A stretch of 32,536 bases of DNA from Actinomycetota bacterium (GTDB lineage Bacteria; Actinomycetota; Thermoleophilia; UBA2241). Shown piece after piece: positions 13,635-24,728 of the stretch; position 1 is the stretch's first letter, and every line of letters begins with the position of its first letter. A program made the translations under genes and the position numbers. The notes beneath the pieces are model-generated. The model made no database searches and was not told the DNA's origin. It saw only the letters and a list, made by a program, of their open reading frames with translations. The stretch lies in contig JAPLCM010000102.1 in the NCBI GenBank assembly GCA_026392275.1, positions 1-32,536 on the forward strand, given 5' to 3'.

Positions 13635-14861
13635 CTACGCTGCGATCATCGCCACCTCCAGGACGGGCTCTGCGGCGCCCGGGGTGAGCGTCTTGGCGAT
13701 GGCCTCGAGGCTCATGTAGCGCCTTCCTGAGTCGGCCCACTCGTCATTCTGCTCGGCCAGCACGGCGCCCACGAGGCGCAGGGCCGCGGCGCGGTTGGGG
13801 AAGATGCCGACCACGTCCGTGCGCCGGCGGATCTCGCGGTTCAGGCGCTCCAGGGGGTTGTTGCTCCAGACCTGACGCCAGACCTCCTTGGGCACCGCCG
13901 TGAAGGCGAGCACGTCGGGGCCCGCCTCCTCGAGCAGTTCGGCGGCGGCTGCGAAGCGCTCCTCGAGCTGGGCGACGACGCGTCCGTGCTGCTCGTGCAC
14001 CTGCGCGGCCTCGGGCTGCGCGAAGATCGAGCGCACCAGGGTGGCGACGAACGGCTGCGCGCTCCGCGGCACGCGGGTCAGCAGGTTGCGCATGAAGTGC
14101 GTGCGGCATCTCTGCCAGCTCGTCCCGGGCAGGGTCGCGGCGATGGCGTCGGTGAGGCCCTGATGGGCGTCGCTGGTCACGAGCACGACCCCCGAGAGGC
14201 CGCGCGCCACGAGGCCGCGCAGGAAGGCCGTCCAGCCGGCGCCGTCCTCGCTGGTGATCAGCTCGAGGCCGAGGCTCTCACGGCGCCCATCGGCGGTGAC
14301 GCCCACGGCGTGCACGCAGGCGACGGAAGCGATGCGCCCGCCTTCTCTGGCCTTGACCACGAGGGCGTCGAGGGCAAGGAACGGGTAGGCGCCCGAGAGC
14401 GGCCGGCTGCGGTAGGCCGCCACGACCTCGTCGAGCGAAGCGACGAGGCGGCTGACCTCGCTCTTGGAGATGCCCTCGATGCCCAGGGTGCGCACCAGCT
14501 TGTCGACGCGCCGCGTACTGACCCCCGCCAGGTAGGCGTCGGCGATCGCCGCCACGAGGGCCTGCTCTGAGCGCTTGCGCGGCGCCAGCAGCCAGTCGGG
14601 GAAGTAGGAGCCGCTGCGCAGCTTGGGCAGGGCCAGATCGATCGTCCCGGTGCGCGTGTCCCAGGCGCGCTCGCGGTAGCCGTTGCGGCGGTTGACGCGC
14701 TGCGGGTGGCGTTCGCCGTGGGCGGCGCCGCAGAGGGCGTCGACCTCGGCGTCCATGAGCGCCTCGGCCATGCGCTTCACCATCGTGCGCAGCAGATCCA
14801 CGTCGCCCTCTTCGATGAGCTTGCGCATCTCTTCCAGACCGTTCATCGTGACCTCGACCAT
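13635..14861 (-). CDS. IS256-family (Mutator type) transposase
   Basis: YPFLALDALVVKAREGGRI, VLVTSDAHQGLTDAIAATLPGTSWQRCRTHFMRNLL, WSNNPLERLNREIRRRTDVVGIFPN: DDE catalytic blocks of IS256 transposases. Confidence 0.95.
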   Translation of the reverse strand: MVEVTMNGLEEMRKLIEEGDVDLLRTMVKRMAEALMDAEVDALCGAAHGERHPQRVNRRNGYRERAWDTRTGTIDLALPKLRSGSYFPDWLLAPRKRSEQALVAAIADAYLAGVSTRRVDKLVRTLGIEGISKSEVSRLVASLDEVVAAYRSRPLSGAYPFLALDALVVKAREGGRIASVACVHAVGVTADGRRESLGLELITSEDGAGWTAFLRGLVARGLSGVVLVTSDAHQGLTDAIAATLPGTSWQRCRTHFMRNLLTRVPRSAQPFVATLVRSIFAQPEAAQVHEQHGRVVAQLEERFAAAAELLEEAGPDVLAFTAVPKEVWRQVWSNNPLERLNREIRRRTDVVGIFPNRAAALRLVGAVLAEQNDEWADSGRRYMSLEAIAKTLTPGAAEPVLEVAMIAA

Positions 14862-15567: not shown

Positions 15568-16362
15568 GTGAACGGCCGCATGAAGCCCGCCGTGGGCCGC
15601 CTCTTGGACGATGCCCGCTTCTCGCTCGCCCCCCGCGGCGGCGAGGACGTCTTGCGCCAAGGCCTCATCATGCTCGCCTGCTACGCGGCCTATGACGTCT
15701 CTCGCGCGGTCGTCGTCGGGCGGGAGGCGGTCGCCATGGCCAACGGTCTCTTCTTCATGAATCTCGAGAAAGCCTTGGGCATCTTCTGGGAGCCGTGGGT
15801 CCAGGGCCGCGTCAGCGCGTTCCCACCCCTCATGGACTTCCTCGTGTGGTCGTATGGCGCCCTCCATCTGCCGCTCATCATGGCAACCATGGTGTGGGTC
15901 TTCACGCAGCGCCGCAGCCACTGGACGAAGTTCCGCAACTGGTTCCTCGCCATGAACTTCATGGCGGTCCTGCTCTACTTTCTGCTGCCCACGGCGCCGC
16001 CGCGCATGATCTTCACCTCTGGCGTCGCCGACATCAGCTACCTGCAGGGCAAGCGGCCGGCCATCTTCGAGAACGGTCTCCTTGCCAACCCGTTCGCGGC
16101 CATGCCCAGCCTGCACTTCGCCTATGCGCTCTTCGTGGCGCTGGCCCTTTTCATGCTGGCCCGCCAGACCTGGCTGCGGTGGGGCGGCTTCGCCTACCCT
16201 GCGCTGGTACTCCTGGCGATCGTCGCCACCGGCAACCACTTCGTCGTCGACGCGGCCGGCAGCGTGCTCGTGCTGCTGGCTGCCTACGTCCTCGCCGCGA
16301 GTGTCCAGACGAGCGACGTCACAGGCACGCGCCCCATGACGGTGCGCGGGCGCGACGGCTGA
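15568..16362 (+). CDS. PAP2 superfamily (phosphatase / inositolphosphotransferase-like) membrane protein
   Basis: Multiple TM segments, AAMPSLHFAYALF and GNHFVVDAAGS PAP2 motifs; GTG start. Confidence 0.8.
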   Translation: MNGRMKPAVGRLLDDARFSLAPRGGEDVLRQGLIMLACYAAYDVSRAVVVGREAVAMANGLFFMNLEKALGIFWEPWVQGRVSAFPPLMDFLVWSYGALHLPLIMATMVWVFTQRRSHWTKFRNWFLAMNFMAVLLYFLLPTAPPRMIFTSGVADISYLQGKRPAIFENGLLANPFAAMPSLHFAYALFVALALFMLARQTWLRWGGFAYPALVLLAIVATGNHFVVDAAGSVLVLLAAYVLAASVQTSDVTGTRPMTVRGRDG

Positions 16363-16363
16363 C

Positions 16364-16978
16364 GTGGCGAATCTCAAGACCCGGTACACCGACGGAGCGC
16401 GCCGCGGCTTTTTCAAGGTCGGCGTCGTGCTTGCCCGGATCGGCGTCACCGCCGACGTGCTCACCGTCTTCGGTCTGTTGCTGCACGTCGGCCTGGTGCC
16501 GCTCGTCCTCACGGGTCACTTCGTGTGGGCCGTACCCCTGGGGATCATCGCGGGTTTCTGCGACGCTCTCGACGGCGCCGTGGCGCGCGCCGGCGCCGGC
16601 TCCACCAAGGCCGGCGCCTTTCTCGATTCGACGACCGACCGGATCTCCGAGCTGCTGGTCTCCGGGGCCCTCGTCGTCTACTTCGCGCGCGAAGCGCAAT
16701 GGTGGCCCACGGTCGGCGTCCTGGTGTTCATGGGGGCCGCGCAGATGGTCTCATACACCCGCGCCCGCGCCGAGGCGCTGGGCGTCGACTGCAAGGTCGG
16801 CTTCATGTCACGCCCCGAGCGCCTCGTCGGGCTCGGCCTGGGCTTCCTGTTCTCCGGCTGGAGCATCGGCAGCACGAGCTTCCTCGTATGGATGGTGTAT
16901 CTGCTCGCGGTGTTGACGTCGTTGACCGTCGTCCACCGCATGGTCCACGTGATGCGCAAGCTCCGCGCGACCGCGTGA
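16364..16978 (+). CDS. CDP-alcohol phosphatidyltransferase (phosphatidylinositol-phosphate synthase-like)
   Basis: DALDGAVARAGAGSTKAGAFLDSTTD fits DxxDGxxARx8GxxxDxxxD; adjacent to Ino1. Confidence 0.85.
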   Translation: MANLKTRYTDGARRGFFKVGVVLARIGVTADVLTVFGLLLHVGLVPLVLTGHFVWAVPLGIIAGFCDALDGAVARAGAGSTKAGAFLDSTTDRISELLVSGALVVYFAREAQWWPTVGVLVFMGAAQMVSYTRARAEALGVDCKVGFMSRPERLVGLGLGFLFSGWSIGSTSFLVWMVYLLAVLTSLTVVHRMVHVMRKLRATA

Positions 16979-17089: not shown

Positions 17090-18193
17090 TTGGGTAATCC
17101 GGTACGCGTTGCCATCATCGGCGTCGGCAACTGCGCCTCGTCGTTCGTCCAGGGCGTGGAGTTCTACAAGAGCGCCAAGAAGTCCGATTTCGTGCCCGGC
17201 CTCATGCACCCCGTGCTCGGCGGCTACCACATCCGCGACATCGAGTTCGTGGCCGCCATCGACATCGACAAGAACAAGGTGGGCAAAGATCTCAGCGAGG
17301 CCGTCTTCACCAAACCCAACAACACGGTGAAGTTCTGCGACGTGCCCGCGAAGGGCGTCAGCGTCGCCCGCGGCATGACCCACGACGGCCTCGGCAAGTA
17401 CCTCTCGCAGATCATCCAGAAGGCTCCCGGCGCCACCGCCGACATCGTCGGCATCCTCAAAGAGACTCAGACCGACGTGGTGGTCAACTATCTGCCCGTG
17501 GGCAGCGAAGAGGCCACCAAGTGGTACACAGAGCAGATCCTCACGGCCGGCTGCGCCCTGGTCAACTGCATCCCGGTGTTCATCGCCCGCGAGCCCTACT
17601 GGCAGAAGCGCTTCGTCGAGGCCGGCGTGCCCGTCATTGGCGACGACATCAAGAGCCAGGTCGGCGCCACCATCGTGCATCGCGTGCTTACGCGCCTCAT
17701 GCGCGAGCGCGGCGTCAAGCTCGAGCGCACCAGCCAGCTCAACGTGGGCGGCAACACCGACTTTCTCAACATGCTCGAGCGCGAGCGCCTCGAGTCGAAG
17801 AAGATCAGCAAGACCAACGCTGTCACCAGCCAGCTCGACTACGACATGGGGGCCGACAACGTGCACATCGGCCCCAGCGACTACGTCAAGTGGCTCGACG
17901 ACCGCAAGTGGGCCTATATCCGCATGGAGGGACGCACCTTCGGCGACGTGCCTCTCAACATCGAGCTCAAGCTCGAGGTCGTCGACTCACCGAACTCGGC
18001 GGGCATCGTCATCGATGCCGTGCGCTGCGCCAAGATCGGCCTCGACCGTGGGCTCGCCGGTTCGCTCGAGGGCCCCAGCAGCTACTTCATGAAATCGCCG
18101 CCGGTGCAGCACCCCGACGATCAGTGCCGCCGCATGACCGAGGAATTCATCGCCGGCGACGGCATCGGCGCCACGGCCGTCTGCCAAGGCTGA
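17090..18193 (+). CDS. ino1: Inositol-3-phosphate synthase
   Basis: [75 protein letters not shown] start after GTGGAGGT. Confidence 0.93.
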
Positions 18194-18332: not shown

Positions 18333-20228
18333 ATGAGCCACAAGATCGGTATCCTCACGCCGTTTCTCTGGACCACGCCATCGGGCGTCAATCGTCAGGT
18401 GGAAGCACTGGTCGAGCGGCTCACGGCGCACGGTCATCGCGTCACCGTGATCGCCCCCAGCGCCGACCGGCTCGCGGTCGCCGAGGCGCGGCGCCGAGTG
18501 CAGGCGGTGCTCACCGGCGAGCGGCCGACGGTCTTCCTGCCCGACGAGCCCTACCCACGCTACTTCTTCGCCGGTGCCACCTACGCGGTGCGTGAGAGCC
18601 GCTCGCTCAAGCTCATCGCCGCTCCGGCGGATCTCATCGCCAACATCGACGTGCTGCTCGAGGCCGAGGATCTCGACGTGCTGCACCTTCACGAGCCGTT
18701 CGTCCCGGGCCTCGGATGGACGGCGCTGCGTCACGCCGGCTGTCCCCTCGTGGCGACGTTTCACGCGAACCCTGAGCGCATGGCGCCCTTCTGGGCCACG
18801 CGGCCGCAGCTACGGCGTCTGTTCGACTCGCTTGACGCCGCCATCGCTTCATCGCGCGCCACCAGGGACACGGCCGCGCTCACCTTCCCCGGCGCCTACC
18901 GCGTCATCCCGCCGGGCGTCGATCTGCAGCGGTTCCGGGCCGGCGACGGCAGAGAGCCCGGCCCGCTGCGCGTGCTGTTCGCCGGCGTGGAGTCGCGGCG
19001 CAAGGGCCTCGGCGTGCTGCTGCGTGCGCTGCGTTACCTCGACGACCGCGCCGCCGAGCTGAGCCTCGACGTATGCGGCGCCGACCGCCAGGAGCGGCGC
19101 TACGCGCGGCTGGTGCCGCCCGCCTTCGCGGGCCGGGTGCGCTTTCTCGGGCGCGTGCCCGACGCTGCCATGCCGGATCTGTACCGGCGCGCAGACGTGT
19201 TCTGCGCGCCGTCTCTGGGCCCGGAGACTGCCGGGGTGGCGCTGCTCGAGGCCATGGCCTGCGGCGCGGCCGTCGTGGCCTCGCGCTTGCCCGGCTACGA
19301 CGAGGTCGTCTACGACGGCGCCGACGGCCTGCTGGTGCCGCCGCGCCGCCCGCGGGCGCTCGCCGCCGCGCTCCGCCGCCTGCTCGACGACCCCCCGCTC
19401 GTCGGCCGCCTGGCGCACGAGGGGCTGCGCACCGTGCGCCGTTACGGCTGGGAGCGCGTGGCCGGCGAGATCGAGGGAGTCTACGAGCAGGTGGCCGGGC
19501 GGCGGCGGCAGCCGCTGCCTCGCCGCCGCCGTCAGCAGCGCGAGCTGTTCGCCGACTTCCACATCCACACGCATCACAGCAGGGATTGCGTCATGCCGGT
19601 GACCGCCATCCTCGAGAGGGCTCGCGAGGTCGGGCTCGACGTCGTCGCCATCACCGACCACGACAGCGCCGCCGGGGGTCTCGAGGCGCGGGAGATCGCC
19701 GACCGGTACGGCGTGCGGGTCATCGTCGGGGAAGAGGTCAAGAGCAGTGAAGGCGAGGTCATCGGCCTCTTCCTGGAGCGCACGATCCCCGGCGGCATGA
19801 CGTTCTCCGAGTCGATCGCCGCCATCAAGGAGCAGGGCGGGATCGTGTACGTGCCGCACCCGTTCGACCGCCTGCACGTGATCCCCGGCCCGCAGGTACT
19901 GCGCGCCAACGTCGCCGACATCGATGTGCTGGAGGTGTTCAATTCGCGCCTCGCCTTTCCCGGGTTCAACGAGCTGGCCGAGCGATTCGCGCAGCGCTAT
20001 CGCATCCCGGCGGCCGCGGGCAGCGACTCGCACGTGCTTCCCGGCATCGGCACGGCGCTGTGCGGGATCGACGACTTCTCCGGGCCGGGCGACTTCGTCG
20101 CGGCCCTCGCCGAGAGCCGCATCGTGCGCCGCCCCAGAAGCCGCATCTATCTGCAATCGCTCAAGCTCATCCAGACCACCATCGGCGGGCCTCCGCGGGG
20201 ATCTGGGCAGGATGATTCCCCTGCATAG
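18333..20228 (+). CDS. Glycosyltransferase family 4 fused to a C-terminal PHP-domain phosphoesterase
   Basis: GT4: SGVNRQVEALVERL, FAGVESRRKGLGVLLRAL, PSLGPETAGVALLEAMACGAAVVAS; PHP: DFHIHTHHSRD, AITDHDS, VPHPFDR, AAGSDSHV. Confidence 0.9.
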   Translation: MSHKIGILTPFLWTTPSGVNRQVEALVERLTAHGHRVTVIAPSADRLAVAEARRRVQAVLTGERPTVFLPDEPYPRYFFAGATYAVRESRSLKLIAAPADLIANIDVLLEAEDLDVLHLHEPFVPGLGWTALRHAGCPLVATFHANPERMAPFWATRPQLRRLFDSLDAAIASSRATRDTAALTFPGAYRVIPPGVDLQRFRAGDGREPGPLRVLFAGVESRRKGLGVLLRALRYLDDRAAELSLDVCGADRQERRYARLVPPAFAGRVRFLGRVPDAAMPDLYRRADVFCAPSLGPETAGVALLEAMACGAAVVASRLPGYDEVVYDGADGLLVPPRRPRALAAALRRLLDDPPLVGRLAHEGLRTVRRYGWERVAGEIEGVYEQVAGRRRQPLPRRRRQQRELFADFHIHTHHSRDCVMPVTAILERAREVGLDVVAITDHDSAAGGLEAREIADRYGVRVIVGEEVKSSEGEVIGLFLERTIPGGMTFSESIAAIKEQGGIVYVPHPFDRLHVIPGPQVLRANVADIDVLEVFNSRLAFPGFNELAERFAQRYRIPAAAGSDSHVLPGIGTALCGIDDFSGPGDFVAALAESRIVRRPRSRIYLQSLKLIQTTIGGPPRGSGQDDSPA

Positions 20229-20329
20229 CATGCGAATGACGTCTCCCGCTCCGGATTTGCGGGAAGCCCGCGAGGAGTTGGCCGGAGAGGCGCGAACTAC
20301 CTAGCGGAGACCCCGAACCGAGGTACCGC

Positions 20330-20932
20330 GTGGCGCAACCCAACGAAATCTACGACAAGTACCTGACCCGGGCGATCTCGGAGATCAACGAGCTCACCGG
20401 CGAGATCCTCAGGTGTTCCAGGTGTAGCCACGCGCGCACCATGCCGGTCATCGGCTCCGGCCATCCGATGGCCGACATCTTCATGCTCAAATACCAGGCG
20501 CGCCCGTCCGAGCTGCACGAAGGCGTGGCGTTCTTCGGGCGCGCCGGCACGGCTCTCATGAAGAGCTGCCAGCGGCTCAAGATCGACCCGCTCCAACTCT
20601 ACGGTACCAACGTCGTCAAGTGCGGGGAGGTGCGCGGCGGAAAGCCCGAGGCCAAGTGCCTCGAGCACCTGCGCCGCGAGCTCGCCATCGTGAGCCCCAA
20701 GCTCATCGTGGCCATGGGCGCGGAGACCGTGCAGGCGCTGGGCGCGGCCAACGTTCCGCTGGCCCGCGAGCTCGCCTATGAGCCCGGCGAGATCGGGGAG
20801 TTCACGCCGGGTACCGAGGTGCTCGTGACCCCCGACATCGACGCTTCTCTCGACGAACAGCGTCTCAAGGCCGCCTTCTGGCGCGCGTTTCGCCGGCTCG
20901 GCGAGTGGTACGACAACATCCCGCCGTACTGA
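20330..20932 (+). CDS. Uracil-DNA glycosylase superfamily protein (family 4/5-like) with degenerate catalytic motifs
   Basis: CSRC...FFGRAGTALMKSC...YGTNVVKCGEVRGGKPEAKC resembles Fe-S UDGs; GEAPG and HPS motifs absent. Confidence 0.7.
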   Translation: MAQPNEIYDKYLTRAISEINELTGEILRCSRCSHARTMPVIGSGHPMADIFMLKYQARPSELHEGVAFFGRAGTALMKSCQRLKIDPLQLYGTNVVKCGEVRGGKPEAKCLEHLRRELAIVSPKLIVAMGAETVQALGAANVPLARELAYEPGEIGEFTPGTEVLVTPDIDASLDEQRLKAAFWRAFRRLGEWYDNIPPY

Positions 20933-20936
20933 CCCC

Positions 20937-21656
20937 ATGACGCGCCTCGCGCCGGCCGTGGTCGCGGGCGCGGCGATCGTCCTCTGGGGCGCCCTCAGCA
21001 GCAGACTCCCGGCGCTGCCCGTCAGGGCCGACATCATGCTCTCCTCGGCGCTCGTGCTCGCGCTCGTCGCCGTGCTGGTATGGGGCCTTCTGCCGTTGCA
21101 CACCCTGGGCCGCCGCCTGCTCTTGGTGACGGCGGCGGCTCTGCCGCTGGCCATCCTCTTCGTCTGGCTCGGCTGGGTGCCGCTGGCCAATGTGGCCAAA
21201 GTCGTGGCCGCCGCCGCCCTGGGCATATGGATCGCCGAGGAGCTCGAGAAGCTGAGCTGGATCGTGATCGTCGCCGTGATCTCGGCGGCCGTCGATATCG
21301 TCAGTGTTGCGGCGGGCCCCACCAAGGCCATCCTCGAACAGGGACCGGTGGTGGTCGGCTATTTCACGATCGTCGTCACGTGGGCCGGCTACGCGTACAG
21401 CGAGGCCTTCACGGGGCTGGGGATCAGCGACGTCATCTTCCTGGCGCTCTATCTGGGAGCGGCGCGGCGCTTCGGGCTGCGCGTGGGATGGAGCGCCGTG
21501 GCCATGGTGGTCTCGTTCCTGGCGACGATCGCCGCGGCGATGTGGTGGACGGCGCTGCCGGCGCTACCGCTGCTCTCGGTGGCTTTCCTCGTCGTCAACG
21601 GCGACCTGCTGTGGCGGAAGCTGCGGCGCGGTGGGGAGGCGTCGGGCGCAGCCTGA
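20937..21656 (+). CDS. Polytopic membrane protein; candidate presenilin/SPP-like aspartyl protease
   Basis: Many TM helices; AAVDIVSVAAGPTKAILEQ, GLGISDVIFLALYLGAARRFGL, and ALPALPLLSVAFLVV resemble the D / GxGD / PAL motifs of presenilin-like proteases. Confidence 0.5.
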   Translation: MTRLAPAVVAGAAIVLWGALSSRLPALPVRADIMLSSALVLALVAVLVWGLLPLHTLGRRLLLVTAAALPLAILFVWLGWVPLANVAKVVAAAALGIWIAEELEKLSWIVIVAVISAAVDIVSVAAGPTKAILEQGPVVVGYFTIVVTWAGYAYSEAFTGLGISDVIFLALYLGAARRFGLRVGWSAVAMVVSFLATIAAAMWWTALPALPLLSVAFLVVNGDLLWRKLRRGGEASGAA

Positions 21657-21670
21657 GCGGTCGCGCGTCG

Positions 21671-23113
21671 TCAGGCGTTGCGCGTGAACAGGGCGACCGT
21701 CTCGATGTGGTGCGTCTGCGGGAACATGTCGACGGCCGCGACCCGGCGCAGGCTGTAGCCCAGCTCCGCGAGCTCGGCGCCGTTGCCGGCCAGCGTGGTG
21801 GGGTTGCACGACACGTAGACGAAGCGCTCCGCGCCGAGCGCCGCGGCGCGCTGCAACGCCCTGCGGGCGAGCCCGGCACGCGGCGGGTCGACCATGACCA
21901 CCAGCGGGCGCTCGGCGTCGTCGTGGCGCCCCGCGTCGAGCGTCGGGTGCGGCGGGAACTTGAGCAGGGGGCGCACGTCGCGGGCGTGGAACGCGACGTT
22001 GGCGACGCCGTTCAGCGCCGCGTTCTCGCGGGCCGCCGCGACGGCCTCCTCCTGGATCTCCACGGCCTGCACCTGCCGCGCGCCGCGCGCAAGGGGCAGG
22101 CTGAGCGAGCCGATGCCGCAGTACAGATCGACGGCGGGCTGCGTGAGGTCGGGGGCGGCGAAGGCCAGAGCCTGGGCATAGAGGGTCTCGCACATGGCGC
22201 TGTTGGTCTGCAGGAAGGCCGCGGCCGGCACTTGGAGATCGACGCCGGCGAGGCGCTCGCGGATGTGCGGCGGCCCGAGCAGCATGTGTGGGCCGTCGCC
22301 CACGGCCGCGTCGGCCGGCGTGTCGTTGACGGTGACGCCGAAGGACGTGCAGGCGCAGTCGGCGGCGACGCGCGCGACGAGCTCGGCCTCCTCGGGAAAG
22401 CGCGCCGAGACGAAGAGGTTGAGGAGGAGGTCGCCGCTCGAAAGGCCCTCGCGGACCACGAGATGGCGCAGAAGGCCGTGGTGGTGGTCGCGCCCGTACG
22501 GGCGCAGACCGAGGGCGCGCGCGGCGTCGGCCACGGCCTGCCGCGCCCGGTTGATACGCCCCGAGGCCAGGCGGCAATCCGTGGTCTCGACCACCTCGCG
22601 CCACGAGCCGCGGCGGTGCAGGCCGAGCTGCAGCTCACCGTCGTCGGCCTCCCCGAACGAGAACTCCATCTTGTTGCGATAGCGCCAGGGATCGTGCATA
22701 CCTCGAATCGGCTCGAGCTCGAAGCCGTCAAGGTGGCCGAGACGCTGCAGCGACTCCACGACTTGCTGCTGTTTGAACTCGAGTTGCGCCTCGTAAGTGA
22801 GGGTCTGCCATTCGCAGCCGCCGCAGTCGTCGGCGTGCTCGCAGACGGGGGCGATGCGGCGCGGGGAGGGGGTGAGGATCTCGATGACCCGCGCCTCCGC
22901 GTGGCTCTTCTTCCGCCGCGTGACCTTGACGCGCACGCGGTCGCCGGGCACGGCTCCGCGGACGAAGAGCACGAATTCGTCGAGGCGCGCGACTCCCTGA
23001 CCGCCGTAGGCGAGGGTGGCGATGTCGAGCTCGACGATGTCTCCGGGTCGCGGTGGCATGGGCGCCATGCTACTCGCTGCCTGCGCGCGCCGCGAACCGG
23101 CGTGATTGTCCAC
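21671..23113 (-). CDS. RlmD/TrmA-family RNA (uracil-5-)-methyltransferase with TRAM domain
   Basis: LDIATLAYGGQGVARLDEFVLFVRGAVPGDRV (TRAM), CEHADDCGGCEWQ Fe-S, DLYCGIGSLSLPLA, VDPPRAGL, YVSCNPTTLAGN. Start may be internal (~23068). Confidence 0.9.
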   Translation of the reverse strand: MDNHAGSRRAQAASSMAPMPPRPGDIVELDIATLAYGGQGVARLDEFVLFVRGAVPGDRVRVKVTRRKKSHAEARVIEILTPSPRRIAPVCEHADDCGGCEWQTLTYEAQLEFKQQQVVESLQRLGHLDGFELEPIRGMHDPWRYRNKMEFSFGEADDGELQLGLHRRGSWREVVETTDCRLASGRINRARQAVADAARALGLRPYGRDHHHGLLRHLVVREGLSSGDLLLNLFVSARFPEEAELVARVAADCACTSFGVTVNDTPADAAVGDGPHMLLGPPHIRERLAGVDLQVPAAAFLQTNSAMCETLYAQALAFAAPDLTQPAVDLYCGIGSLSLPLARGARQVQAVEIQEEAVAAARENAALNGVANVAFHARDVRPLLKFPPHPTLDAGRHDDAERPLVVMVDPPRAGLARRALQRAAALGAERFVYVSCNPTTLAGNGAELAELGYSLRRVAAVDMFPQTHHIETVALFTRNA

Positions 23114-23225
23114 CCGCAGGACCCCTCCCGGCCTGTGGACGGCGGCCGCAAGCTGGTAGAGTCGACGGCGGGTCGTCGGGGTGTGCCGCGGCCGCCGTCC
23201 TCATACGTCGTTCAAGGAGGGACAA

Positions 23226-24728
23226 GTGAGCGTGCCCGACCTCGAGACCTACCGCCGCCGCGCCGAGGAGTTCATCGGCGCCCTCGACAGCGAGTACAAC
23301 GAGCACTTCTCGGGCCGCAAGCCCGTCTGCGACACGGCGGCGGTCTACGACCGCTACCCCGAGCTGTTCACGCGCGACGCCGTCGTCGAGCTCGACGCGC
23401 TGTATCATCGCACCGTCGAAGAAGACGCCAAGAGACGCCTCGCCTACCTCAGTGCCTTCACCGTCGACGGGTTCATGGGCGAGCAGACCAAGCTTCTCGT
23501 CGACGAGATCGCCAACACCGAAGGCTCGACGACCATCGCCGTCGACGGCGAGACCATCGGCTTGCGTCAGGCCAGGGTCGTGCAGGGCAACGAGGCAGAT
23601 GCCGCTCGCCGCGCGCGCATCCAGAGCGCCCGTCTGGCCGCCACCGACGAGCATCTCAACCCTCTGTACGAACGGCACTGGCGACGCTGCCACGATCTCG
23701 CCGCAGACCTCGGGTACCCCAACTACATGGAGCTGTTCTCAGAGGTCAGGGGCCTCGACTACGGTCTGCTGCGCGCCGAGCTCGAGGGCTTCCTGCGCGA
23801 TACGGCGGGACTGTACGAGCGTGTCATGGACCGCCTGGCTCGCGAGCGCCTGGGTATCACCCTCGCCCAGCTCAGCTACGCCGACCTGCCCTACTTGTGG
23901 CGCGCCCCCGGCTTCGACGGCGTTTTCACCGCCGACGGCCTTGTGCCGACGCTCCGCCGCACCCTCGCCGGCATGCATATCGACCTCGACGCCCAGGCCA
24001 ACGTGCACCTCGACACCGAGGTCCGCGAGCTCAAGTCACCGCGGGCTTTCTGCGCGCCGGTGCGCGTGCCCGACGAGATCTATCTGGTCGTCCTGCCTCA
24101 CGGCGGCCAGGACGACTACGCCACGCTGCTGCACGAGGCGGGGCATACCGAGCATTTCGCGCACACCTCCCGGGATCTGCCCTTCGAGTACCGCCATCTC
24201 GGCGACAACGCCGTCACCGAGGCCTTCGCTTTCATCTTCGACCACCTTGTGGTCAACCGCCGCTGGCTCGAGCGCTACCTTCAGTTCACCGATGCTGACG
24301 ATTTTGTGCGCTTCGCCAGCATCAGCGATCTCTACTTCATGCGCCGCTATGCGGCCAAGCTGGCCTACGAGACCGAACTGCACACCCAGACCGGCGAGCT
24401 GCGCGGCGTGGCGGCCGAGTACAGCCGCAGGCTTGGCGAGGCCACCATGGTCGACGTGCCCGAGCAGATGTATCTGGTCGACGTGGACGACGGGTTCTAT
24501 TGCGCCAGCTACCTGCGCGCCTGGATGCTCGAAGGCGCCTTGCGCATGATGCTGCAGGACCGGCACGGCATGGACTGGTTCGCCAACGACGCCGCCGGCG
24601 CCTGGCTCAAGGAGCTGTGGTCCTACGGCCAGCATTTCACCGCCGAGAAACTGCTCCTCAAGCAAGGCGGCGGACGTCTCGACACCGACCCCCTGCGTCA
24701 CCACTTCGAGCGCGCTCTGGGCCGCTGA
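23226..24728 (+). CDS. M3-like zinc metallopeptidase
   Basis: GTG at 23226 after AAGGAGGGACAA; LLHEAGHTEHF (HExxH) with downstream TEAFAFIFDHL. Confidence 0.75.
   Translation: MSVPDLETYRRRAEEFIGALDSEYNEHFSGRKPVCDTAAVYDRYPELFTRDAVVELDALYHRTVEEDAKRRLAYLSAFTVDGFMGEQTKLLVDEIANTEGSTTIAVDGETIGLRQARVVQGNEADAARRARIQSARLAATDEHLNPLYERHWRRCHDLAADLGYPNYMELFSEVRGLDYGLLRAELEGFLRDTAGLYERVMDRLARERLGITLAQLSYADLPYLWRAPGFDGVFTADGLVPTLRRTLAGMHIDLDAQANVHLDTEVRELKSPRAFCAPVRVPDEIYLVVLPHGGQDDYATLLHEAGHTEHFAHTSRDLPFEYRHLGDNAVTEAFAFIFDHLVVNRRWLERYLQFTDADDFVRFASISDLYFMRRYAAKLAYETELHTQTGELRGVAAEYSRRLGEATMVDVPEQMYLVDVDDGFYCASYLRAWMLEGALRMMLQDRHGMDWFANDAAGAWLKELWSYGQHFTAEKLLLKQGGGRLDTDPLRHHFERALGR

Follow-up and report, generated by a model that had tools for sequence, protein, structure and literature searches.

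The Alzheimer's amyloid peptides are made by a human enzyme whose cutting subunit is presenilin. Enzymes of the presenilin type have been described from eukaryotes and archaea (PMC2947513, PMC9282858). A review table of bacterial regulatory proteases includes presenilin, the example given being a eukaryotic protein (PMC7593790). The orientation of signal peptide peptidase (SPP) is opposite to that of presenilin and is associated with type II substrates (PMC4457840; PMC2947513). Our literature search, which left most subscription journals outside so that an earlier description is possible, found no description of a bacterial presenilin family. The window analysed here is a 32,536-nucleotide stretch of DNA from a member of the Thermoleophilia. 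This class of actinobacteria, found in soil and water, is poorly known.

The candidate gene and its neighbourhood

The candidate presenilin-like intramembrane aspartyl protease is encoded at positions 20937 to 21656 (+) of the window and comprises 239 residues with eight predicted transmembrane helices. The open reading frame is real and is encoded exactly as the first-pass annotation described. When the gene is compared with those of two relatives of the same genus, differences at first, second and third codon positions number 13, 13 and 52 in one case and 17, 13 and 48 in the other; 46 codon changes are silent, and 21 and 23 change the residue. This concentration of changes at third codon positions, together with the silent excess, identifies a genuine gene under protein-level selection. 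In this GC-rich genome, the overlapping open reading frames at 20297-21331 (-) and 21080-24298 (+) are most likely shadow frames.

A gene of the uracil-DNA glycosylase (UDG) superfamily lies directly upstream (20330 to 20932, +; PF03167, 8.9e-11); 4 bases separate its end from the start codon at 20937. Downstream, the gene is convergent with an RNA methyltransferase gene (21671-23113, -). The upstream region of the window carries, all on the (+) strand, members of a conserved cluster: a PAP2-superfamily membrane phosphatase (15568 to 16362; PF14378, 4.2e-43), a CDP-alcohol phosphatidyltransferase that is probably a phosphatidylinositol-type synthase (16364 to 16978; PF01066, 1.6e-15), a myo-inositol-1-phosphate synthase (17090 to 18193; PF01658, 1.3e-37) and a glycosyltransferase fused to a PHP domain (18333 to 20228). 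Among 39 neighbourhoods of family genes, where counts are lowered by contig ends, the UDG gene is found upstream in 37, the glycosyltransferase-PHP gene in 30, the CDP-alcohol phosphatidyltransferase gene in 29 and the inositol-1-phosphate synthase gene in 22. In the second lineage that carries the family, the phosphatidyltransferase gene is present at 5/5 loci and the order phosphatidyltransferase-UDG-protease is kept at 3/5. These conserved neighbours, including those of the second lineage, indicate that the family gene is regularly associated with a cluster that probably serves phosphatidylinositol and glycolipid synthesis. The cluster suggests a housekeeping membrane task linked to inositol-lipid and glycolipid synthesis.

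Across the class, a candidate membrane protease gene has as its near-constant upstream partner a UDG-superfamily gene, that is, an enzyme of the DNA-repair type. Two further genes of the window were classified by eye. A 408-aa open reading frame that adjoins the lipid-synthesis cluster (13635-14861, -) is IS256-type transposase-like, and a 515-aa protein (23181-24728, +) with an HExxH motif in LLHEAGHTEHF resembles an M3-type peptidase and has no Pfam match over the cut-off. Since S2P (PF02163) and rhomboid (PF01694) proteases are also encoded in the same genome, the candidate is not its sole intramembrane protease.

Sequence kinship to presenilin

The single protein has no match in Pfam, NCBIfam or the PDB. 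On the basis of single-sequence searches alone it would be called an unknown protein, and its kinship becomes visible only with a family profile. A profile of 65 members was searched against 177,635 distinct PDB sequences, among which the numerous membrane proteins of other kinds served as a built-in negative control. Eight matches were obtained at E<=10 and all are presenilins, with PSEN2 at 7.8e-12, PSEN1 from 1.4e-10 and a PSEN1 C-terminal fragment at 3.5e-6; values for full-length PSEN chains range from 7.8e-12 to 3.8e-8. The alignment spans positions 9-219 of 240 and keeps D120, D165 and PALP in register: D120 falls on the first presenilin Asp, a common GP and E follow, and LGxxD falls on LGLGD. 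A disjoint profile, built only from 11 members of the second lineage, retrieved presenilin-1 first at 0.0024 in the same register (presenilin range 0.0024-0.03). Presenilin, PF01080, is also the commonest Pfam match of the members themselves (18/65), these matches being weak (best 1.5e-4) and below the cut-off. Matches of single members to DUF4267, YwiC and SDF were dismissed as hydrophobic noise. The two profiles and the fold comparison described below bear out the presenilin/SPP kinship that had first been proposed from motif order and spacing, and we regard homology to presenilin and its clan as close to certain.

The empty single-sequence searches and the low-complexity hydrophobic composition could also be accounted for by an unrelated polytopic membrane protein in which D, D and PAL occur by chance. 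However, two disjoint profiles, the Pfam matches of the members and the fold search all lead to presenilin, and the motif residues are invariant. Unless all these results share one bias they refute such a coincidence, which we consider very improbable.

In sequence, the family lies closer to presenilin PF01080 than to archaeal PF06550. The archaeal PSH, or MCMJR1 (PF06550; 4hyg, 4y6k), is like the candidate a prokaryotic single chain and appears at ranks 13, 18, 20 and 21 of the fold search. It differs in that it keeps YD and GxGD (PMC2947513), and PF06550 was found in 0 of 99 genomes of the class, the controls being matched in two archaea. PSH shows lower activity in micelles than in bilayers (PMC9282858). 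In 99 genomes, no family protein reached the curated cut-off of PF01080 either, and an NCBIfam scan of all members gave scattered weak matches only, none above cut-off. The family is therefore invisible to the Pfam and NCBIfam annotation models.

Polytopic di-aspartyl membrane proteases are also represented by the type 4 prepilin peptidases and FlaK (A24), whose second Asp lies in a GxGD-like motif, and the candidate might be a protease of that type. However, none of the 65 members matches the corresponding Pfam family, PF01478, and the alignment to presenilin is full-length and includes the PAL motif, which to our knowledge is absent from A24 enzymes. With no A24 chain among the fold matches listed, we find this assignment scarcely credible, and the presenilin/SPP clan is retained.

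Family distribution, motifs and predicted structure

Homologues are present in 14/15 genomes of the order of the host and in 137/299 genomes of the class, the named matches being Thermoleophilia MAGs. Outside Thermoleophilia, they were detected in one other family of the phylum, in 13/40 genomes of the class concerned. The plasmid collection searched gave no family match.

In the family alignment (n=69; about 27-91% identical to the window protein), the two candidate catalytic residues are conserved in practically all orthologues, D120 (codon 21294 to 21296, +) in 69/69 and D165 in 68/69. The assignment made in the first-pass annotation thus stood on the point of conservation, and it had correctly located D120 in AAVDIVSVAAGP, D165 in GLGISDVIFLALYLG and the triplet P208-A209-L210. 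D120 lies in helix 106-126 and is aligned with D257 of PSEN1 and D263 of PSEN2. It is followed by an SVxxGP stretch, S123-P128 (21303 to 21320, +), which aligns with the presenilin stretch after the first Asp and is well conserved (S123 69/69, V124 66/69, G127 69/69, P128 65/69). The second candidate Asp belongs to LGISD, L161-D165 (21417 to 21431, +), the counterpart of presenilin LGLGD, in which G162 is found in 69/69 sequences. P211 extends the PAL triplet to PALP (208-211; 21558 to 21569, +), located where the last transmembrane helix begins and aligned with presenilin PALP (P208 64/69, A209 62/69, L210 64/69, P211 68/69). Other highly conserved residues are F168 (67 of 69), L181 (66), R182 (64) and N221 (60/67). 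In one homologue, L057, the second Asp is lost (LGAVA), but the first Asp and a PAIP motif are present; it is possibly an inactive copy.

Of the two Gly of GxGD, the first is aligned with G162 and the second with S164, so that the motif is LGxxD, here G-I-S-D. The description of this GxSD sequence as non-canonical proved to apply to the whole family: the first Gly is present in 65/65 members, and the residue before D165 is never Gly (0/65), being Ser in 29, Pro in 24 and Ala, Thr and Val in 4 each. The Tyr of YD is missing as well, residue 119 being V, I, A, T, L or M in 65/65. Because of these two features we do not file the family as a strict GxGD protease and treat it as a homologous family of the same clan. 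Presenilin is reported to lose nearly all activity when G382 or G384 is replaced by a larger residue (PMC10290658). The lack of the second Gly lowers the claim to membership and raises real doubt on activity.

The bacterial protein may share ancestry with presenilin yet lack protease activity, either from the outset or by loss, and act as a membrane chaperone, a scaffold or a small-ion or lipid conduit in which the Asp pair is used otherwise. The equivalent of Gly384, needed in presenilin (PMC10290658), is S, P, T, A or V in all members and no Tyr precedes the first Asp; moreover the constant neighbours are lipid-synthesis genes and not proteolysis genes. However, few positions are conserved as well as the Asp pair and PAL over 27-91% identity, and a scaffold would not need them. 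We judge a lack of proteolytic function unlikely. Such conservation of the catalytic parts speaks for a working active site, and the family probably consists of active intramembrane proteases. It is likely that the window protein is a member of a bacterial presenilin/SPP-homologous family working as a two-Asp intramembrane protease, proteolysis being the part that we infer.

A model computed by AlphaFold2 with the family alignment (pLDDT 94.2, pTM 0.90) contains long helices at residues 2-23, 29-50, 52-78, 81-102, 106-126 (bearing D120), 163-178 (bearing D165 at its start), 183-201 and 210-235 (after PALP). The short transmembrane architecture noted at first sight is therefore confirmed, with eight helices instead of the nine of the presenilin/SPP clan. 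On this prediction, the helices of D120 and D165 would be neighbours. Between the two Asp are short helices at 128-134 and 137-142 and two strands at 144-148 and 158-162, connected by a short turn (21366 to 21422, +). These elements correspond to TM6a, β1 (288-290) and β2 (377-381) of PSEN1, to which the unwound substrate is paired in γ-secretase (PMC10290658). Presenilin TM1 has no counterpart, as the alignment starts only at PSEN1 residue 142. A first helix overlooked upstream is unlikely, as the end of the UDG gene 4 bases away leaves no room for it.

Comparison of the model with the PDB using Foldseek gave presenilin, SPPL2a or archaeal PSH at all of ranks 1-22, and the first 11 matches have a probability of 0.99-1.00, the top ten all reaching 1.00; scores are modest, with a best E of 8.3e-4 (8oqz) and TM-scores of 0.3-0.5. 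With presenilin (PF01080, MEROPS A22A; PSEN1/PSEN2) the family thus shares its fold, the helix-strand order between the two Asp and a full-length profile alignment with D...GP...E, LGxxD and PALP in register. Unlike presenilin, it lacks the second Gly of GxGD, YD and a TM1 counterpart, stays below the Pfam cut-off and is expected to have no γ-secretase partners. The Asp spacing is 45 residues in the window protein as against 128 in presenilin, and the intervening loop is apparently outside here. SPP/SPPL proteins (SPPL2a, 9k92, at rank 2 of the fold search) resemble the family in fold, in being a single polypeptide and in the probable outside location of the Asp-Asp loop; they differ in that the profile does not match their sequences and in that the bacterial family lacks GxGD and YD and has 8 helices.

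Membrane orientation and proposed activity

Mean net loop charges over the 65 members are +1.34 for the N-terminus, -0.77 for L1-2, +1.68 for L2-3, -0.75 for L3-4, -0.35 for L4-5, +0.11 for L5-6, +2.52 for L6-7, -0.38 for L7-8 and +2.31 for the C-terminus. The value for loop 4-5 (-0.35) is of no help to the orientation argument. The positive-inside rule would place the Asp-Asp loop outside and the two termini, like the 178-182 loop, in the cytoplasm. Judged from these charges, an SPP-like orientation, opposite to that of presenilin, is likely.

Eight members of one branch (L036-L043, from genomes G113, G116, G122, G228, G212, G146, G274 and G204) carry about 105 extra residues in the Asp-Asp loop. 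The insertion falls within the two-strand segment and is modelled as a β-sandwich joined to the two strands. Fold matches of an insert-bearing model include several Fn3 domains (4m6a, probability 1.00, TMt 0.61; 3teu, 7y8i and 8ot5) and presenilin (0.99); Pfam gives a weak fn3 match, and two Cys are found in the insert of 6/8 carriers. An Fn3-like insert, usually with two Cys, fits an outside location of this loop.

The sequence resembles presenilin more closely than SPP or PSH, which would be in keeping with an intramembrane protease in the presenilin orientation, whose cytoplasmic Asp-Asp loop would go with type I or other N-out substrates. However, the loop charges alternate the opposite way, loop 6-7 and the C-terminus being the most positive, and the Asp-Asp loop accommodates an Fn3-like insert with Cys pairs. 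A presenilin orientation therefore appears improbable, and the SPP-like orientation is the one we adopt.

In this orientation the substrates are predicted to be type II (N-in), for example leftover signal peptides or signal anchors. The substrate helix would be unwound, paired to the edge of the 144-148/158-162 strands and then cut, with D120 and D165 on neighbouring helices jointly activating one water molecule. PALP may shape the cleft, as in γ-secretase, and the enzyme would act without the γ-secretase partners. To tie its role to signal peptides or to lipid synthesis is speculation. On balance we lean slightly towards a third branch of the presenilin/SPP superfamily that is bacterial: an active protease with eight helices, a presenilin-like sequence, an SPP-like orientation and GxxD for GxGD, vertically inherited in Thermoleophilia and one other actinobacterial lineage.

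If this is true, the presenilin lineage extends beyond eukaryotes and archaea, and a single N-terminal helix can separate proteins of the two opposite orientations. The absence of the first presenilin helix bears on the origin of the opposite orientations of presenilin and SPP. The second Gly of GxGD, supposed to be essential, is constantly absent, which makes a long-held active-site rule directly testable. A small single-chain relative could also provide a simple laboratory model for helix binding and cutting by γ-secretase. Thermoleophilia would gain a further kind of candidate intramembrane protease beside S2P and rhomboids.

Some relatives carry additional domains. In two of them, from one family (L047, ORF 433-2529; L048, ORF 910-2514), an in-frame C-terminal domain of about 270 residues, which Pfam does not recognize, contains a GAGNxDD...LLDVD stretch resembling a nucleotide- or SAM-binding Rossmann fold. 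The distant relatives L061 and L062 may be fusions: an in-frame preceding region resembles a GGDEF-type domain in degenerate form (VDPATGLLPRSALRVRL...).
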